A DNA stretch of 47,186 bases, taken from the NCBI RefSeq assembly GCF_900609055.1, contig NZ_UXAW01000041.1, forward strand, positions 1 through 47,186. Reading direction: 5' to 3'. Source of the DNA: Pseudogemmobacter humi (lineage in GTDB: Bacteria > Pseudomonadota > Alphaproteobacteria > Rhodobacterales > Rhodobacteraceae). Below are positions 38,175 to 47,039 of the stretch, piece by piece (within the stretch, counting starts at the first letter, position 1; each line of letters opens with the position of its first letter). The position numbers and the translations under genes were made by a program. The notes under the pieces were generated by a model that made no database searches, was not told the origin of the DNA, and saw only the letters and a program-made list of their open reading frames with translations.

Positions 38175-38205
38175 AGCCAGACACCGGTTCTTCAGCCGGT
38201 TGGCT
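38175..38205 (-). terminator. Possible hairpin at the end of the Mrr-like gene
   Basis: AGCCA and ACCGG (38175-38187, with a GAC bulge) pair with CCGGT and TGGCT (38196-38205). The structure overlaps the stop codon, and the minus-strand tail has only a short T-rich end, so its role as a terminator is uncertain. Confidence 0.35.
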
Positions 38206-38926
38206 TTGACGTTTGAGCGGGATGTCGCGGCGGCCAGTTGTAATAGGCGGAAGCGAAGCCCGCTATCTGGGCAAGCTGGGGCAGATCGTCGGGCGTGAGA
38301 AGGATGACGCCCGTTCTGAGCGAAAGATCCTTGGCAGATCGGGTGTAGCGACCAGTAGTGACTACCGCGGCCGCATTGCAGTGATGATACATTCTCCCCG
38401 CATGTGCCTCTTGGACCGCCCCATTGCCTACGGATCCCTTGAAACGCTTGCATTGGATGCCAATAGACTTGCCATAGCGCCAGGCGATAATGTCGAGTCC
38501 TTGGTCGCCGGAACCGCGGGTCACTGTGGCATCCCAACCATCGGCCTTCAGCTTAGCCGCAACCCAATGCTCGAACTCGTGTCCGTTGATCGGTGGATCG
38601 TCTGAGATGGTCGGGACCCTGGTGCCGGTGTTTGTCACTCTGGGTGACGAGCGTGTCTTGCCGTGCCGGTGGAGGGCGTCATGCATCGGCTTCGGGAAGA
38701 CACGGATATTGGTTTTTAGGGACAGAAGGATGAGCGCAAGAAAGATAAGGGCGATCGCGACAATGATGACGTCAGCCGGTCTCTCGGCCCATCGCGCTGC
38801 CACGCTCCTGATGACCTTGGTCGCGAACCATACAATGGCTGAGACAGCTCCACCGACAGCGAGAAATACAACGACAATCTTGGCGATCATGTCGTCTTCG
38901 ATCTGCTTCCTGCTGCGCCGGCCCAT
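38192..38926 (-). CDS. Membrane-anchored Mrr-type restriction endonuclease-like protein
   Basis: A 244-residue protein with two N-terminal transmembrane helices (about 13-39 and 52-70) and a cytoplasmic Mrr_cat domain (about 112-215). The nuclease motif is visible as Glu in GHEFEHWVA, Asp145 in SGDQGLDIIA and Gln158-x-Lys160 in IGIQCKRF, the (D/E)-x(n)-Q-x-K variant of PD-(D/E)xK nucleases used by Mrr. YHHCNAAAVVTTGRYTRSAK is the next conserved family block. AAGGAAAG lies before the ATG. Mrr-type enzymes cut modified or foreign DNA; TM-linked versions occur in defence loci. The gene is divergent from the recombinase-like gene at 39497 and probably belongs to the same island. Targets unknown. 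Confidence 0.85.
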   Translation of the reverse strand: MGRRSRKQIEDDMIAKIVVVFLAVGGAVSAIVWFATKVIRSVAARWAERPADVIIVAIALIFLALILLSLKTNIRVFPKPMHDALHRHGKTRSSPRVTNTGTRVPTISDDPPINGHEFEHWVAAKLKADGWDATVTRGSGDQGLDIIAWRYGKSIGIQCKRFKGSVGNGAVQEAHAGRMYHHCNAAAVVTTGRYTRSAKDLSLRTGVILLTPDDLPQLAQIAGFASAYYNWPPRHPAQTSKPTG

Positions 38927-39496: not shown

Positions 39497-41779
39497 ATGA
39501 AAACAAAAGCTTCAACCTTGACCCCACGCATGCTGTCAGAATTCTGCGCCAGACGGCTGGCGCCCGTCCTGTCGGAGGAAGTTGTCCGGACCCTGCATCG
39601 ATACATGGCCGAGCTGCTCAGCCGAGAGGAGTATCCTCCCTACCGAGGGGCAACGCTTGACCTCGGAGCTGTGGCTGAGACCTTGGGGTTGGACCGATCC
39701 TTGCTACAGGCGCAAAAGGCGCACCTCACCCCGGTATTTGACGCGATCGCGCGCGCGGCGGCAGAAGGCCGACTTCGAGCCGGCCTGGAGGCTGGGGGCC
39801 GCAGAGCCACATCGGTAGCCATCGCAAAGGCAGGGGATGTTGCCGCGAAGGCGGTGCCAACGTGTAACGCAAAAGTCCCGGGCCACACCGGTAAGCGCCC
39901 TGGCAGGGAAGCGCGCCTGATAGTTGAGTTCCCGGAGCCCCTTTTCTCGACCTGGGACGAACCAGACAGCTTCGGCGCCGCACTGAGGCTGCACGCAAGC
40001 GGCCACGGCGAAACGACCTATCACCTCTACGACGCTGTCGTCCGGCCCGAAGATGGCGTCAATCGCAGCACGCTGATCAGTTGGGGCCGCGGGACCAAAC
40101 TACCGCGCGCCACCCTCAGCTTAGAAATTCTGGGACGGATCGAGCGGCGATACCGGCTTCCCGAGGGCTACTTTGTGGAGAAGGCCGGCACCCGGGACCG
40201 TGCGCCGGGTGACTTCAATCTGGAAGGGGTAACACCCGCCGAACGCCGGCGCCTCGCCTGGCATCTGCCGGATGATTTCAACCACCGCAGCCGCCATGAG
40301 AAGTCGGAAATCCTAGACTGGGTGCGCAACGTCATCATCAGCGGTTCGACGGATTATCGGCGCTATCAGGCCGCTATGATGCGGCAGCGCTATGCCGTGC
40401 GGTTCACCTGCGCCTCAGGCCCCCGGCGACCATCTTCCATCGCCCAGACACCGGAGGACTCCGGCATAACGATTGCGCCGAAACGGCTGAATGACGAAAT
40501 GGCTGCCATCCTTAGGTTCAAGACCGCTACTTTCGCCGACTTCGGTCTGCAACGGAACGGCGTCTGGGGCACCGAGACCGCCGCGCAGAAGGTCGAGCAT
40601 TTCGGGCTGTGGTTCGGCGCATTCGCCGCCCCGCCCGAAAGCGAGGTTCAGGGTTGCGGCGTTGATCCAAAGCTGCTGACCTTCGCAATGATGGTCTTTC
40701 CGCAGGTCTGGGACTGGTATCTGACATGGCGCGAACGGCGCCGCGGATTCTACACGAAATGGGAAGTCGACCTTCTTTCCATCGCCGCCGCCTTCTGCCG
40801 GGAGGAAACCGGCTGGTTGCGCCAGACCCCGCGTATCGCGGACAACCTGCGTGAGATCGACGGGCTGATCAGCGGTCAGGACATAGCCGCAGTCCGTGCC
40901 GATTGGGCAGGTGCGTGCGAGCGGATGTATAAGCACGCCCGGCGGCGCATCAAGGAAATCGACCGCGTCGCCCGGATCCACCGCGATCCCTTCGAGCCCA
41001 TCCTGCCGGTCCTGGAGGCCTCCAGTCCGGTCGGCGAGTATCGCAAGATCACCGAGGAGATCCTGAACCAGATGCCGGATGAGCGACATCATCCGCGCGC
41101 TGCGGCGGAGGTCGTCAGATCCTTTCTTCTGCTTCGCATCGGCCTGCACACCGGATTGCGGCAGAAGAACCTGAGGGAACTGCTGCTGTGCAAACCGGGC
41201 AACCTGCCCACGGCGGAACGCAAGCTCGAGGATATGAAACGCGGCGAGTTGCGCTGGAGCAGCCGCGATCACGGATGGGAAATCCTGATCCCATCTGTCG
41301 CATTCAAGAACGCGAATTCGTCATTTTTCGGTTCAAAGCCCTTCCGCCTGATCCTCCCAGACCTCAGTCGGCTCTATGAACTGCTTGAGGCCTGGATTGA
41401 TCGTCATCGCAGCAGGCTGATCGGTGCGGCCGCCGATCCTGGCACTCTATTTGTCAAGACTGCGAAGATGACCAGCACCAATGCCGCCTATTGTCAGAAT
41501 ACCTTCTACGAGGCCTGGCGCACCGCGATCCAGCGCTATGGTATCTACAACCCCTGGACAGAGCGCGGCGCGATCAAGGGCCTACTGCCTCACGGCCCCC
41601 ACAATGTCCGGGACGTTCTGGCCACGCATATCCTGAAGCAGACCGGTTCCTATGAACAGGCCAGCTACGCGATCCAGGATACCGCCGAGATGGTCGCGCA
41701 GCACTACGGGCGCTTCTTGCCCCAGGACAAGGCCGAGATCGCGGCGAGGATACTCAATCAGGTCTGGCAGGCGGCCTGA
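39497..41779 (+). CDS. Large HTH plus tyrosine-recombinase-like protein
   Basis: A 760-residue protein with a degenerate integrase-like catalytic domain at its C-terminus. GLHTGLRQKNLRELLL gives Arg555 (box I), AFKNAN may give the beta-hairpin Lys604, HNVRD gives His702 and Arg705 of H-x-x-R, and AQHYGRF gives Tyr737. The usual second His/Trp about ten residues before the Tyr is not evident (TGSYEQASY). Around residues 180-225, NRSTLISWGRGTKLPRATLS resembles an XRE-like HTH. The chain is nearly double a normal integrase, with about 500 residues of unassigned N-terminal sequence. GGAAGG precedes the ATG. A terminator separates it from the helicase gene. It may integrate DNA or, if inactive, bind and bridge DNA. 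Confidence 0.75.
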   Translation: MKTKASTLTPRMLSEFCARRLAPVLSEEVVRTLHRYMAELLSREEYPPYRGATLDLGAVAETLGLDRSLLQAQKAHLTPVFDAIARAAAEGRLRAGLEAGGRRATSVAIAKAGDVAAKAVPTCNAKVPGHTGKRPGREARLIVEFPEPLFSTWDEPDSFGAALRLHASGHGETTYHLYDAVVRPEDGVNRSTLISWGRGTKLPRATLSLEILGRIERRYRLPEGYFVEKAGTRDRAPGDFNLEGVTPAERRRLAWHLPDDFNHRSRHEKSEILDWVRNVIISGSTDYRRYQAAMMRQRYAVRFTCASGPRRPSSIAQTPEDSGITIAPKRLNDEMAAILRFKTATFADFGLQRNGVWGTETAAQKVEHFGLWFGAFAAPPESEVQGCGVDPKLLTFAMMVFPQVWDWYLTWRERRRGFYTKWEVDLLSIAAAFCREETGWLRQTPRIADNLREIDGLISGQDIAAVRADWAGACERMYKHARRRIKEIDRVARIHRDPFEPILPVLEASSPVGEYRKITEEILNQMPDERHHPRAAAEVVRSFLLLRIGLHTGLRQKNLRELLLCKPGNLPTAERKLEDMKRGELRWSSRDHGWEILIPSVAFKNANSSFFGSKPFRLILPDLSRLYELLEAWIDRHRSRLIGAAADPGTLFVKTAKMTSTNAAYCQNTFYEAWRTAIQRYGIYNPWTERGAIKGLLPHGPHNVRDVLATHILKQTGSYEQASYAIQDTAEMVAQHYGRFLPQDKAEIAARILNQVWQAA

Positions 41780-41791
41780 AAGTCGATTTGG

Positions 41792-41819
41792 CAGGGGGCA
41801 AACAATATGCCCCCTGTTT
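41792..41819 (+). terminator. Intrinsic terminator between recombinase-like and helicase genes
   Basis: CAGGGGGCA (41792-41800) and TGCCCCCTG (41808-41816) form a perfect 9-bp stem with a 7-base loop, then TTT. It begins 12 bases after the upstream stop codon. It implies the helicase gene has its own promoter in the next 110 bases. Confidence 0.7.
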
Positions 41820-41927
41820 GGCAACGAAGGATGATCTCGCCATCATCAGGACGACCAGATAAGCTTCCACACATCATTGAAGACAAACGGGCTTTTTCAC
41901 TGTGCCCATTTCGGTAAGCATTCGCGG

Positions 41928-44900
41928 ATGGAACTTCGACACACTAACATCTTGTCACGTTGCCTATCGATCGACCTCGAGGTGGATCCGCGTGAGGCGA
42001 AGGTGTTTGCGGTTGCTGCTGTGCGCAACGATGACCAGACTGCCCTGAAGGTTGTGGGCCGACTGACCGAGCAAGTTCTGGACGCACTTGAGGTCCAGCT
42101 TGGTCATGTCGATTATCCAATCGGGCATAACATACTAAATCATGACCTCGAGCATCTCGTGGCTCAGCGGCCAGGGATTGAGCGGGCCATGCGGTCGCCG
42201 ATCGACACCTTGTGGCTAAACCCGCTCGCCTTCCCTCGGAACCCGTATCACCATCTGGTGAAACACTACCATGATGGTCGCCTTGCCACAGGGCATGTGA
42301 ATGATCCCGAACGGGATGCGCGTCTTGTTTTCGAAGTGCTGGCGAACCAACTTGATGCGCTGGGACAACTGGGCCGTGACGCGCCCGATGCATTAACGGC
42401 CTATCACTATCTGTCCACGCGCATCGAGAATGCCGGAGGCTTTGATGCGGTCTTCCGATACCTGCGTGGCAAGGCTTGCCCTGACCTCGATGAGGCGATG
42501 GCCGCAGTCCGGCGTATGCTGGCCGGGCGAGCCTGTGACCGGCGTGTCGAGCAGACCCTCACCCGGCTGAGCAGTCCGCGTAACGGATGGCCGATGGCCT
42601 ATGCCTTGTCATGGATCACGGTGGCCGGGGGCGACTCTGTGATGCCGCCTTGGGTGCGCGCCCGGTTCCGGGAAGCTTCGCTGATCGTTCGGCATCTGCG
42701 CGACACGTCGTGCAAGGATCCCGGCTGCGGCTGGTGCGCCGAGCAGAATGACCCCGTGCGGGCGCTGGAAAGATGGTTCGGCTTTCCCGCCTTCCGCCCA
42801 CAGCCTGTCGACCCGGAGGGCCGACCGTTGCAGGAGCGAATCGTCGATGAGGCGATGTCGGGCAACAGCGTTCTTGGAATCCTGCCGACTGGGACAGGAA
42901 AATCGCTGTGCTATCAGGTGCCCGCGCTCTCGCGTTTCGACAAGATCGGCGCGCTGACCGTCGTGATCTCGCCGCTGGTCGCGCTGATGGCCGACCAGGT
43001 CCAGGGGATGGAGCGCGCGGGCATTTCTTGCTCGGTCACGATCAACGGTATGCTTTCCATGCCGGAACGGCAGGACGCGCTGGACAGGGTCCGGCTGGGC
43101 GATGCCGGGATCCTGATCATCTCGCCCGAGCAGCTGCGCAGCGTCTCGATCCGCAATGTGCTGGCGCAGCGCGAGGTCGGGCTCTGGGCGATCGACGAGG
43201 CGCACTGCGTATCGAAGTGGGGGCACGACTTCAGGCCCGACTACCGCTATCTCGGCCGGTTCATCAAGGAATTCTCCGGGGATCAGGATCCGGCCCCCGT
43301 GCTGTGCCTGACGGCCACCGCCAAGCCCGAGGTAGTGGCGGATATCATCGACCATTTCCAGACCCGCGCCGGGATCACGCTGCTACCGCTTGACGGTGGG
43401 GCATCGCGCACCAACCTGGCCTTCGACGTCCGCCCGACGACGAAGAACAGCAAGCTGTCGGATGTGCTGTCCGTCATCGGTGAGCTGCTGCCCGAAGAAG
43501 GGCGGTCCGGCGCCGTCGTCTATTGTGCCTCCCGAGCGGAGACGGAGCGGGTGGCCGCCTTCCTGCGCACCCAGGGCCTTGATGCCGCGCATTTCCACGC
43601 CGGCCTTAGCGCGGATGACAAGCAATCGGTTCAGGAGCAGTTCCGCGTCGGGGAGTTGCGCGTGATCGCGGCAACCAATGCCTTCGGTATGGGCATCGAC
43701 AAGCCGGACATCCGGCTGGTCGTCCATGCCGACATTCCCGGATCCTTGGAGAATTATCTGCAGGAGGCCGGTCGGGCTGGCCGGGACCGGCAGGACGCGC
43801 ATTGCGTCCTTCTGTTCGTGGCTGATGATGTGGAGCGGCAATTCCGGCTCTCGGCCAGCTCGCGCTTGGCCCGGCACGAGATCGGAGCGATCCTGAAGGC
43901 GCTGCGCCGGATCGACGAGCGCACAAAGAAGACGGGGAAGGTCGTCGTCACTTCGGGCGAGATCGTGCGGTCGGAGAAGGACCAGGAGTTCGAGCGCGAC
44001 GGCAATACGGACGATACCCGCGTCAAGACCGCCGTGTCCTGGCTGGAGGAGGCCAAGCTCCTGTCGCGCGAGGAGAACCGGGTCCAGGTCTTCCCCTCCT
44101 CGTTGATGGTGCGGACCCTGGAGGAGGCGAAGGCCCTTCTCGCGCAGGCCGATCTGACCCAGGTTGCGCGCACGCAGCTTCTGGGCATCGTCTCGCGGCT
44201 GTTCAACGCGGCACCCGATGAGGGCGTCTCGACGGATGAGCTGTGCGGCGCGGCGAAGATGTCCCCCGGGGCGCTGCCAAAGGCGATGGCCACGCTGGAA
44301 GCCCTCGGGATCGCGCGCAATGATATCGCGATGACGGTCTTCCTCCATGTCGGTGTCCCGCGCGCCTCGGTGCAGCGCCTGTCGGAGGCCTGCGCGCTGG
44401 AGCGCGATCTGATCGGTTTCCTGCAGGAGCTTGCCCCGGATCTGGACGACAGGACGCCCGCGCCGCTGCATCTGGCCGAGACCTGCCAGCATCTGCGGGA
44501 CAAGCATCACCCGGATGTGCGGCCTGACACGATCGACCGGCTGATGCGTGGGATCGCGCAGGACGGGCGCAGCCTGGAGGGCGGGCGCGGCAACATCGCG
44601 CTGCGCAAGGCCAGCCGCAACACGCTGCTGGTCACGCTGATCCGGCCCTGGGCCACGGTGAACGAGACCGCCCGGCTGCGATGGTCGGCGGCGGAGTTGC
44701 TGCTGGCCCATCTGACCGGTCGGCTGGAGAAAGGTGTTCGCGGCAAGGACGTGCAGGTCGAGACGACCGTGGGGGATCTCCTGGCTCAGCTGACGCAGGA
44801 TGCCCTGCTGCGGACCAGTGGCATCCGCGACATGACCAAGCTTCTGGAACGCGCGCTGATGTGGTTGCACGAGCAGGGCGTCCTGACCTTGGGCAAGGGG

Positions 44901-47039
44901 CTGGCGGTCTTCCGCTCGGCCATGACCGTCTATCTGGATCCGGCAGGCGGGGCCTTCACGCAAGGCCATTTCGCCCCGCTGGAAGACCATTATACCGAGC
45001 AGACCCTTCAGACGCATGTCATGGCCGCCTATGCGGAAACCGGGCTTAAAACCATGACGGATGCCGCCCGTCTGTCAGAGGACTACTTCCTGCTCAACAA
45101 AGAGCAGTTCATGAAGCGCTGGATGCCGGGTATGGGGCGCGAGGTCCGGCGCCAGACCACCAGTGCCTCGTGGAGCACAATCGTCGAGGCGCTTGGCAAC
45201 AAGGTCCAGCAAGACATCGTGACCGACGACCGGGACCGAACCAATGTTCTCGCCCTTGCAGGTCCGGGATCGGGTAAGACCCGGGTGCTGGTGCATCGGA
45301 TCGCCTATCTCCTGCGGATGAAGCGCGAGGATCCGCGCGGCATCCTGGTCCTGGCCTACAACCGGCACGCCGCCGCCGAAATCCGGGTGCGGCTCCGGGC
45401 GCTGGTGGGCGATGACGCGCAGGGCGTCACGATCTCCACCTGCCACGCGCTTGCCATGAAACTGGTGGGGGCGAGTTTCGTCGGCCAGCGGGCCGATACC
45501 GAGGATTTCGACGATGTTGTGCTCGAGGCCGTCCGCCAGCTGGAGGGCGAGGGCCTGTCCAAATCCGAGGCCGAGGCGCAGCGCGAGACGCTGATCCAGG
45601 GCTATCGCTGGATCCTGGTCGATGAATACCAGGACATCGGACCCGCGCAATACAAGCTGATCGCCGCCGTCGCCGGCCGGAAGCAGGAAGACAGCGACCT
45701 GAAGCTCAGCCTCTTCGCGGTCGGTGATGATGATCAGAACATCTATGCCTTCAATGGCGCCTCCATCGAGTTCATCCGCAAGTTCGAAGAGGACTATAAG
45801 GCGCGCCCGGTCTTTCTGGTCGAAAACTACCGCTCGACTGGAAACATAATCGCGGCCGCCAATGCGGTGATCGCGGGCGCGAAGGACCGTATGAAACTGG
45901 ATCACGAGATCAGGATCAACGCGGCCCGGCGCGCTAACCCGTTGGGCGGCGTTCTGGAGCAGATGGACACTGTGGCCAAAGGCCGGGTGCAGTTGCTTGA
46001 TGCGCCCGCCGGGGATGCCGCACAGGCCATCGCGGCGGTGGATGAGCTGATACGCCTGTCACGGCTGGATCCGGATTGGTCCTGGTCGCGGACCGCGATC
46101 ATCTCGCGCGACTGGCGCAAGCTGGGCGCGGCGCGGTCCTATGCCGAGGCGCAGGGAGTGAAGGTCGAGATGGCCAATGAAGACCTACCAAACATCTGGC
46201 GGCTGCGTGAAACGCAGGCGCTAGTGGCGGGCCTGCGCCAACGTCAGGGGGATTTGCTGGGGATCGACGACATACTGGCCGTGCTCAACGAACAGGTGAC
46301 CAACCGGTGGGTTGAGCTCCTGGCGGAAGGCGTGGCGGAACTGGCGCGGGAGCTGGGCTCGAAGACGATGCCGGTGCCGGACATTGTCGAGTGGCTGGCC
46401 GAATGGTCCCGCGACACGCGCGGCGAACAGCGCGGGCTGCTTCTGCTGACGGCGCACCGGGCGAAAGGGCTGGAGTTTGACCATGTGGTGATCCTGAACG
46501 GAGGCTGGGACCGACCGTCTAAAGGCGAGGATCTGGATGCGCCGCGCCGGTTGTTCTACGTGGCGATGACGCGCGCCCAGAAGAGCCTGGCGGTCATGAC
46601 CACGGGTGAGCACGTCTTGCTGAAGAACGATTCTACAAACGTGCTCCGACGCCCTGTTCGTCCTAATCAGTCGGATATGATGGTGTCACCGAATGTCTAT
46701 CACCCGCCCAATCTGAGAAATGCCGATCTCTCCTTCGCAGGACGGCAGGGCGATCAACACGAGATTCACGACGCTGTTCGGCGCTGCAGGGTGGGGGACA
46801 GTCTCAGACTCGAGTTACGGGATACGAACTGGATGCTGGTCGATCAGCGCGGATGCGTCATCGGCCGTATGTCCAAGACTTGGAAGCATCCGCCGGAGTA
46901 TACCTTCATGGAGGGCCGAGTTGGCGCCGTGGTGCGGTGGCGAAAGTCTGACGGTGAAGAAAAATACGCCGGTTACTGTCGCAGGGATACTTGGGAGACG
47001 GTTCTGCCCGAGATCGTGTTCGCGCCACAAAGAGGTTGA
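41928..47039 (+). CDS. Fusion protein: DEDDh exonuclease, RecQ helicase, UvrD-type helicase and HIRAN-like tail
   Basis: A 1703-residue multi-domain DNA enzyme. Residues 10-145 are a DEDDh 3'-5' exonuclease-like domain: D16/E18 in SIDLEVD, D73 in GHNILNHD, H123 and D130 in HVNDPERDA. A Cys/His cluster (C-x4-C-x2-C near 262-270) precedes a RecQ-type SF2 helicase (about 285-700) with RPLQERIVDE, GTGKS (322-326), DEAH (423-426), the RecQ loop HCVSKWGHDFRP and QEAGRAGRDR. A middle winged-helix-like region leads to a UvrD/Rep SF1 helicase (about 1085-1600) with GPGSGKT (1112-1118), VDEYQDIG, TAHRAKGLEF and YVAMTRAQ. The last 75 residues resemble HIRAN. ATG 41928 chosen; a TTG at 41877 is possible. 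All key motifs are intact. Confidence 0.9.
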   Translation: MELRHTNILSRCLSIDLEVDPREAKVFAVAAVRNDDQTALKVVGRLTEQVLDALEVQLGHVDYPIGHNILNHDLEHLVAQRPGIERAMRSPIDTLWLNPLAFPRNPYHHLVKHYHDGRLATGHVNDPERDARLVFEVLANQLDALGQLGRDAPDALTAYHYLSTRIENAGGFDAVFRYLRGKACPDLDEAMAAVRRMLAGRACDRRVEQTLTRLSSPRNGWPMAYALSWITVAGGDSVMPPWVRARFREASLIVRHLRDTSCKDPGCGWCAEQNDPVRALERWFGFPAFRPQPVDPEGRPLQERIVDEAMSGNSVLGILPTGTGKSLCYQVPALSRFDKIGALTVVISPLVALMADQVQGMERAGISCSVTINGMLSMPERQDALDRVRLGDAGILIISPEQLRSVSIRNVLAQREVGLWAIDEAHCVSKWGHDFRPDYRYLGRFIKEFSGDQDPAPVLCLTATAKPEVVADIIDHFQTRAGITLLPLDGGASRTNLAFDVRPTTKNSKLSDVLSVIGELLPEEGRSGAVVYCASRAETERVAAFLRTQGLDAAHFHAGLSADDKQSVQEQFRVGELRVIAATNAFGMGIDKPDIRLVVHADIPGSLENYLQEAGRAGRDRQDAHCVLLFVADDVERQFRLSASSRLARHEIGAILKALRRIDERTKKTGKVVVTSGEIVRSEKDQEFERDGNTDDTRVKTAVSWLEEAKLLSREENRVQVFPSSLMVRTLEEAKALLAQADLTQVARTQLLGIVSRLFNAAPDEGVSTDELCGAAKMSPGALPKAMATLEALGIARNDIAMTVFLHVGVPRASVQRLSEACALERDLIGFLQELAPDLDDRTPAPLHLAETCQHLRDKHHPDVRPDTIDRLMRGIAQDGRSLEGGRGNIALRKASRNTLLVTLIRPWATVNETARLRWSAAELLLAHLTGRLEKGVRGKDVQVETTVGDLLAQLTQDALLRTSGIRDMTKLLERALMWLHEQGVLTLGKGLAVFRSAMTVYLDPAGGAFTQGHFAPLEDHYTEQTLQTHVMAAYAETGLKTMTDAARLSEDYFLLNKEQFMKRWMPGMGREVRRQTTSASWSTIVEALGNKVQQDIVTDDRDRTNVLALAGPGSGKTRVLVHRIAYLLRMKREDPRGILVLAYNRHAAAEIRVRLRALVGDDAQGVTISTCHALAMKLVGASFVGQRADTEDFDDVVLEAVRQLEGEGLSKSEAEAQRETLIQGYRWILVDEYQDIGPAQYKLIAAVAGRKQEDSDLKLSLFAVGDDDQNIYAFNGASIEFIRKFEEDYKARPVFLVENYRSTGNIIAAANAVIAGAKDRMKLDHEIRINAARRANPLGGVLEQMDTVAKGRVQLLDAPAGDAAQAIAAVDELIRLSRLDPDWSWSRTAIISRDWRKLGAARSYAEAQGVKVEMANEDLPNIWRLRETQALVAGLRQRQGDLLGIDDILAVLNEQVTNRWVELLAEGVAELARELGSKTMPVPDIVEWLAEWSRDTRGEQRGLLLLTAHRAKGLEFDHVVILNGGWDRPSKGEDLDAPRRLFYVAMTRAQKSLAVMTTGEHVLLKNDSTNVLRRPVRPNQSDMMVSPNVYHPPNLRNADLSFAGRQGDQHEIHDAVRRCRVGDSLRLELRDTNWMLVDQRGCVIGRMSKTWKHPPEYTFMEGRVGAVVRWRKSDGEEKYAGYCRRDTWETVLPEIVFAPQRG

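Follow-up and report, generated by a model that had tools for sequence, protein, structure and literature searches.

What becomes of DNA ends, in repair as in defence, is decided by helicase–nuclease machines. RecBCD, AddAB and AdnAB carry a nuclease of the PD-(D/E)XK type, WRN has a DEDDy exonuclease together with RQC and HRDC domains and no UvrD motor, the DinG motor is XPD-like, and PsyrTA and RqlH/RqlI are examples of toxin-like RecQ helicases. Here we describe a gene at the end of a 47186-base stretch of a Pseudogemmobacter humi contig (the window), which encodes in one chain a DnaQ-fold exonuclease, a RecQ motor and a UvrD motor. The product is probably a DNA-processing or defence enzyme not characterised before, and its exonuclease domain keeps the metal ligands of its fold with another residue in place of the catalytic His. 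A pseudo-exonuclease N-terminus, without two acidic residues and the Tyr, is described for pExoDinG (PMC11981726).

Architecture of the fusion protein

The gene is a single uninterrupted frame of 1703 amino acids, from the ATG at 41928 to the stop at 47039 on the + strand, and the contig ends 147 bases past its stop. An earlier note, made from the letters of this DNA, had proposed one intact frame of about 1700 codons with RecQ and UvrD modules, and this holds, with Pfam cores at residues 299-620 and 1094-1558. The whole order of exonuclease fold, four-cysteine stretch, RecQ core, ordered middle region, UvrD core and small beta module is kept in other bacteria at about 30-91% identity, and is thus conserved beyond chance; the same order was found in eight labelled phyla. 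The helicase motifs read from the sequence are present as GTGKS (322-326), DEAH (423-426), GPGSGKT (1112-1118) and VDEYQD (1231-1236), and all counted positions are invariant in 77 full-length rows (the window and 76 of 89 loci, with 13 partial loci excluded) except V1231 (73/77). Residues 1-296, 625-1087 and 1555-1703 gave no Pfam match above cut-off.

In the first motor, Pfam placed DEAD at 299-471 and Helicase_C at 516-620, the RecQ-family model TIGR00614 scored above its cut-off (307.4 against 219.8 bits), and the 50 Foldseek matches listed for the RecQ-containing structural model were all RecQ-family helicases (25-36% identity). The RecQ equivalog models were not reached (TIGR01389, 357.8 against 640.2; NF008279, 270.7 against 1015). 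Because no RecQ zinc, RQC or HRDC model of Pfam matched anywhere in the protein at E ≤ 1, the layout of cysteines and RecQ core is not the usual RecQ arrangement; C203, C262, C267 and C270, which occur together in 75 of the 77 rows between the exonuclease and the RecQ core, suggest a new, putative zinc site.

The second motor was recognized through UvrD-helicase and AAA_19 matches within 1094-1291 (AAA_19 at 1094-1275) and UvrD_C at 1504-1558, that is, through both the N- and the C-terminal UvrD helicase domains (PF00580, 2.5e-42; PF13361, 1.4e-15) with Walker A and B motifs; scores for the UvrD, PcrA and Rep equivalog models were far below cut-off. A predicted model of residues 640-1703 had a mean predicted local distance difference test (pLDDT) of 83.8, and Foldseek ranked UvrD, PcrA and Rep first, then AddAB, AdnAB, RecBCD and GajB, the lists for both structural models being filled by RecQ and UvrD-type matches.

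The C-terminal module had been described as HIRAN-like, a label that is weakly supported. Pfam HIRAN (PF08797) matched neither the window protein nor, at E ≤ 1, any of 47 members of the family, and gave no match in the window's genome at E ≤ 0.001, and the search through solved structures matched nothing relevant to HIRAN. Comparison of the module with HIRAN by hhalign gave weak probabilities of 9.6% and 13.6% (30 aligned HIRAN rows from other genomes) and of 6.3% with four HIRAN rows; what speaks for the label is a trimmed re-run, in which the probability was 22.9% and the score, 22.8, exceeded those of all 100 column shuffles (highest, 16.6) and of the reversed profiles (12.3 and 14.0). The signature N-x2-D-x2-A, which lies between the L.L and G..iGy strands of HIRAN (N and A invariant and D in at least 90% of 30 HIRAN rows), is not reproduced, as N and D fall in a gap of the profile alignment and A stands opposite another residue. 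We therefore call the module HIRAN-like, tentatively and on weak profile similarity, and not HIRAN. A stand-alone 684-residue UvrD protein of Sphaerotilus (L159:5785-7839) carries the same module at its end (E 2e-18), so the module goes with the UvrD half.

Table 1. Positions in the window of the fusion gene, its parts and the adjoining shared stretch
Feature	Positions	Strand	Basis
Upstream stretch common with the 91%-identical G004 copy (41770-41938, 89%)	41770..41927	+	DNA comparison
Complete coding sequence, 1703 residues: exonuclease fold, four cysteines, RecQ motor, ordered middle, UvrD motor, HIRAN-like C-terminus	41928..47039	+	single frame, domains, homologues
DnaQ/DEDD-fold exonuclease, residues ~8-151; D16, E18, D73 and D130 kept, N125 replacing the DEDDh His	41949..42380	+	profile, model, alignment
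N125 codon, five residues before D130	42300..42302	+	N 114, S 6, H 3 of 123 complete distinct domains
Stretch with C203, C262, C267 and C270; putative zinc site ahead of the RecQ core	42534..42737	+	75/77 rows
RecQ-family superfamily 2 (SF2) helicase core, residues 299-641, GTGKS/DEAH	42822..43850	+	Pfam, TIGR00614, Foldseek
Middle region, residues 640-1090; conserved and predicted to be ordered, for the most part helices, with some small strands	43845..45197	+	model, alignment
UvrD/Rep-type superfamily 1A (SF1A) helicase core, residues 1094-1558, GPGSGKT/VDEYQD	45207..46601	+	Pfam, Foldseek
Beta-rich module at the C-terminus, residues 1596-1703; weak profile similarity to HIRAN	46713..47036	+	profile-profile, model

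An altered exonuclease active site

The proposed N-terminal exonuclease stood as a fold, but without a curated match in the window protein: Pfam RNase_T was absent there and, of 50 members, matched four at E ≤ 1, with 0.0027 as the lowest value. A profile of residues 1-290 built from 50 homologues had the DinG exonuclease as its best solved-structure match in the PDB (E 5e-4), with the elements 'GHN..fD' and 'vvDTL' aligned to the N-terminal domain. In an AlphaFold2 model of residues 1-760 (47 homologues; mean pLDDT 85.8, with residues 115-122 of low confidence) the order of strands and helices fits the DnaQ fold, with D16 and E18 in the first strand (12-20) and D73 and D130 near the starts of helices 69-80 and 127-151, respectively. 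Model order, DinG match and conservation together thus identify the fold and the four acidic metal ligands of DEDDh (DnaQ/RNase T) exonucleases. Across the 77 rows D16 and E18 are each kept in 76, and D73 and D130 in all; among complete distinct domains, all four are present in 123/123 (a profile at E ≤ 1e-5 collected 151 rows, which merged into 126 distinct cores, and three cut-off cores were dropped).

The His of DEDDh enzymes is their general base. The earlier note had placed it at H123 and taken all catalytic motifs to be present in a proofreading-type nuclease; its acidic residues were right, but H123 is not the catalytic residue, being His in only 30/77 rows and lying seven, not five, residues before D130. 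The residue that faces the His of the DinG H-x4-D motif in the profile alignment is N125, and over the 123 domains Asn occupies this position 114 times, Ser six times and His three times, so that Asn or Ser stands there in 120 of them. The three His rows are divergent proteins of the cold-shock-domain (CSD)/Hymenobacter type from Rhodobacter sp. CZR27, genome G028 and Hymenobacter swuensis, and those of CZR27 and G028 are close relatives and not independent. Judged from these alignments, the fused family has switched its general-base residue while the metal ligands stayed; its nuclease has the DnaQ fold but departs from textbook DEDDh proofreading enzymes in an active site switched to Asn or Ser. 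A literature search, judged by title and abstract opening, returned nothing relevant on an Asn variant of the DEDDh site.

Loss of the His in nearly the whole family might instead mean that the exonuclease is catalytically dead and acts only as a clamp on a 3' end or single strand, leaving a double helicase without a nuclease, an arrangement compatible with either a defence or a repair role. The pseudo-exonuclease N-terminus of pExoDinG offers a precedent (PMC11981726). We regard this explanation as a serious contender and still rather doubtful, because conservation of all four metal ligands in every complete domain is hard to explain without metal-dependent chemistry, whereas pExoDinG is described as lacking two acidic residues as well as the Tyr (PMC11981726). 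Retention of the ligands speaks against a dead domain, and Asn or Ser in place of the His speaks for altered or regulated nuclease activity; the switch suggests slow, conditional or altered chemistry.

Patchy distribution, probable transfer and decay

The gene is accessory, patchy and often decayed, in agreement with the expectation that it would not be a widespread housekeeping gene. A query of the first 290 residues (E ≤ 1e-10) matched 9 of 99 relatives (10/100 with the window's own genome), and two of these nine copies carry stops; a profile matched 15 of 397 Pseudomonadota genomes (16/398 with its own), one of the matches being a remnant. Among 72,556 plasmid records, 21 hold at least 80% of the protein in one place, and the plasmid copies listed come from alpha- and gammaproteobacteria and cyanobacteria. 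From a scan of genome contigs we used the best 80 loci (40-84% identical), since the 585 matches of that scan cannot serve as a family count, both patterns also fitting ordinary RecQ or UvrD genes. These 80 loci, many of them in metagenome bins, include Chloroflexota, Acidobacteriota, Actinomycetota, Cyanobacteriota, Nitrospinota, Thermodesulfobacteriota and Latescibacterota, and divergent copies lie on plasmids of Bacteroidota, Deinococcota and Campylobacterota. Viral contigs gave only one match, in a scan limited to close relatives.

A quick maximum-likelihood tree of the 77 rows shows mixed branching of the eight phylum labels, with six changes of the Pseudomonadota label, four of them forced by starred branches, and three of the Chloroflexota label, two of them forced. 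Some branches are long and bins may be contaminated, so transfer between phyla is likely, not proven.

DNA comparison with the closest copies points the same way. Similarity to the window spans 41928-47028 in L029, 41961-47026 in L085 and 41931-47027 in L165, the last with 169 bp upstream from 41770; in L046 and L030, which are more distant, only the inner part of the gene aligns. Because similarity to the closest copies ends near its start and stop, the gene looks like the unit that moves. Six other close pairs were compared: similarity stops at the gene ends in L012/L044, L034/L045 and L100/L101 (with little flanking sequence available for L034 and L100), extends upstream in L035/L091 and L043/L048, and covers both sides in L057/L064.

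The upstream stretch shared with G004 (41770-41938) takes in the last 10 bases of the neighbouring recombinase gene, where it begins, a possible insertion junction. In G004 a run of N lies between this stretch and the gene, and the 2568-codon frame of that copy was discarded as an artefact, its upstream part being the run of N.

Broken copies include those of G032 and G025 (stops), G092 (frame change) and Nostoc (an IS1634 insertion), and G201 retains an N-terminal and a C-terminal remnant only. Such decayed or interrupted copies fit gain and loss under conditional selection. A remnant at L179:5484-8894 (-) consists of an N-terminal exonuclease piece and a C-terminal HIRAN-like piece, the middle having been lost. 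The copies of L060 and L074 are each split into two frames near residues 1238-1272, probably through assembly error, although the coincidence is odd.

Genomic neighbourhood

Clustering of 1322 flanking open reading frames from the 89 loci revealed no specific conserved partner gene, nor any recurrent candidate for a RecBCD/AddAB-like partner subunit; only two clusters occurred in more than five loci (14 and 8), and on inspection these resemble generic ABC-type ATPases and sensor-kinase-type proteins. A DUF3427-type helicase lies near four loci.

Some copies have known or candidate defence genes close by. Genes of the PDC-S37/Hhe type adjoin L029 (3990-9878), the window's sister in the tree, and L045 (3980-9493); a type IV-restriction-like or DUF3427/PLD helicase lies within 0.8 kb of L032, L056, L078 and L091 (L032 scanned with PADLOC, L056 with Pfam); L014 contains a type I restriction–modification system, and a type I-D CRISPR system about 4 kb from L013. 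PADLOC run on eight large neighbours left five without a match, one of these consisting mostly of unknown residues. The Pfam tally of the nearest neighbours (142 of 152 proteins, leaving out three over 1500 residues and seven others, including gene fragments) listed 25 of 149 families, of which RVT_1, AbiEii, PIN and nSTAND3, with two each, are defence-like. The 142 nearest proteins matched 207 PADLOC families, against 96 matched by 116 proteins more than 6.5 kb away, tallies that count families and not members and so carry no claim of enrichment. The defence-island survey that had been proposed therefore yielded candidate genes near some loci, but no demonstrated enrichment.

At the window itself, a 760-residue recombinase-like protein with a weak Phage_integrase C-terminus, below cut-off, is encoded upstream (39497-41779, +). 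It may belong to a little-described family of large tyrosine recombinases: its relatives occur in 194 plasmid records, mostly of Sinorhizobium, Rhizobium and Agrobacterium and 123 of them typed conjugative, and in the 25 records listed are annotated as 'hypothetical protein' or not at all, once as 'FUSC family protein'. Beyond it lies an Mrr_cat protein with an N-terminal hydrophobic stretch (38192-38926, -), which matches PADLOC PDC-S02 and ZorD-type Mrr segments. An operon with these two genes was rejected, as tblastn against flanks of about 10 kb per locus, less at contig ends, matched only the window's own loci for the recombinase and none for Mrr; both are also absent beside the 91%-identical copy from the same genus. 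The suggested link with Mrr and recombinase genes is thus particular to this locus. The window contains no tRNA gene.

Proposed role and mechanism

Patchiness, single-gene transfer and decay together point to a conditional benefit, for which conflict with foreign DNA is our first choice and service to mobile replicons a close second. We accordingly propose, with less than even confidence, that the protein is a self-contained, horizontally mobile, one-chain machine for processing DNA 3' ends, with an inferred role against foreign DNA. The fuller version, held more tentatively still, is a single-gene mobile system, not described so far and spread across phyla, in which RecQ and UvrD motors would serve a 'DEDDn' nuclease of DnaQ fold, with a new four-cysteine site and a divergent HIRAN-like end sensor, as a one-chain counterpart of RecBCD acting against foreign DNA.

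RecQ and UvrD motor families both move 3'->5' on single strands, and for this reason we picture the protein loading on a 3' tail or branch. The RecQ part would open the junction and the UvrD part would pull the 3'-ended strand, while the exonuclease fold at the rear might hold or trim the 3' end, by analogy with RecB or AddA, in which a strand is passed on to the nuclease; the C-terminal module would probably aid recognition of the DNA end or branch. Coupled unwinding and degradation, as suggested from the sequence alone, is plausible in this arrangement, and its outcome would be that foreign, branched or replicating DNA, of phage or plasmid, is destroyed or blocked by a single-gene accessory system.

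Several observations weigh against a nuclease directed at invaders. The catalytic His is missing; several immediate neighbours are metabolic in the Pfam tally of the 142 nearest proteins; the tallies of near and far gene sets establish no difference, and the link to defence islands is suggestive in some loci only; no PADLOC model among the 25 of 99 matches listed spans the whole protein; and 50,697 phage records contained no copy with the N-terminal query.

Some of the same material would suit an accessory recombination or repair enzyme that processes stalled forks, branched intermediates and incoming DNA, keeping plasmids, islands or large secondary replicons stable instead of destroying invaders. 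RecQ and UvrD are repair motors by family, the 21 plasmid records counted above hold at least 80% of the protein, and plasmid genes lie close to some copies of the family: parA/parB, a replication initiator and a type IV secretion system gene beside the divergent Aliarcobacter copy, a replication initiator near the Deinococcus copy, and ssb and parA a few kb from the Bacteroides copy. We place this explanation second, not far behind the preferred role and likewise below even odds. Against it stand the lack of a conserved replication partner (ParA-like proteins in 2/89 loci), the absence of replication or partition families among those Pfam families listed for the nearest neighbours, and the lack of a LexA-box signal, three patterns giving 1, 0 and 0 matches upstream of 85 loci against 0.2, 0.7 and 0.2 expected from shuffles; SOS control was rejected on the LexA-box counts. 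A toxin-like RecQ helicase restrained by an unlinked or small antitoxin is highly improbable: the RecQ core does match the PADLOC model of PsyrT, and a small helix-turn-helix-like gene lies within 2.7 kb in 5/89 loci, yet this gene, the most frequent small neighbour noticed, is lacking in most.

Should the preferred 3'-end-processing machine prove active, coupled unwinding and degradation could be studied in a single protein, and nature would have supplied a test of whether a DEDD nuclease can work with Asn or Ser for His; a defensive role would make it a system not described before.

Comparison with known systems

By title and abstract opening, no description of an exonuclease–RecQ–UvrD fusion was seen among the literature matches listed, and the 2006 HIRAN paper (Iyer et al.) may mention bacterial fusions. 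The arrangement resembles WRN, in which an exonuclease likewise precedes a RecQ motor within one chain, but differs in its DEDD site with Asn or Ser, in the absence of detected RQC and HRDC domains and in the whole UvrD motor that follows RecQ. ExoDinG is likewise similar in having an exonuclease and a helix bundle ahead of an SF2 helicase, but has a canonical DEDDh site, a DinG-type motor and, in the part of the source considered, no superfamily 1 (SF1) motor described (PMC11981726).

A 2507-codon open frame of G028 (L194:4215-11735, -) has a sister architecture of cold-shock-like domain, canonical DEDDh exonuclease, SF2 and UvrD. It shares the order of exonuclease, SF2 and UvrD, with motors about 30% identical, and differs in its extra N-terminal cold-shock-like domain (below the Pfam cut-off) and canonical His; it gave no match to the profiles of residues 640-1090 or of the C-terminal module at E ≤ 10. 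CSD-type exonuclease relatives were found in 2 of 295 genomes of the family (in G025 over the first ~120 residues only) and in none of 398 of the phylum. In Rhodobacter sp. CZR27 the copy (L160:3042-10443) carries an annotation of three genes, which correspond to the one 2507-codon frame in G028. On a Hymenobacter swuensis plasmid (L185:278-8435), one gene encodes an exonuclease with canonical His and SF2 lobe 1, and an overlapping second gene encodes SF2 lobe 2, UvrD and a weak C-terminal match, with about 500 unassigned residues in front. A split-operon ('Rosetta stone') argument was dropped, since the CZR27 genes correspond to a single frame in G028 and the H. swuensis break falls between the SF2 lobes; both look like frame breaks, not designed splits.

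Gabija GajB, PsyrT, DpdF and the DRT-associated helicase each match one helicase core of the fusion, DpdF, PsyrT and GajB being the best PADLOC matches; none of the 25 matches listed covers the fusion, and no search was aimed at GajA, PsyrA or Dpd partners. With RecBCD, AddAB and AdnAB the fusion shares the coupling of one or more motors to a nuclease, and its UvrD half matches their SF1A subunits in fold, after UvrD, PcrA and Rep. These systems are multi-subunit, whereas the fusion, in which no PD-(D/E)XK nuclease matched in Pfam at E ≤ 1, unites a DnaQ fold, an SF2 motor and an SF1A motor in one chain.

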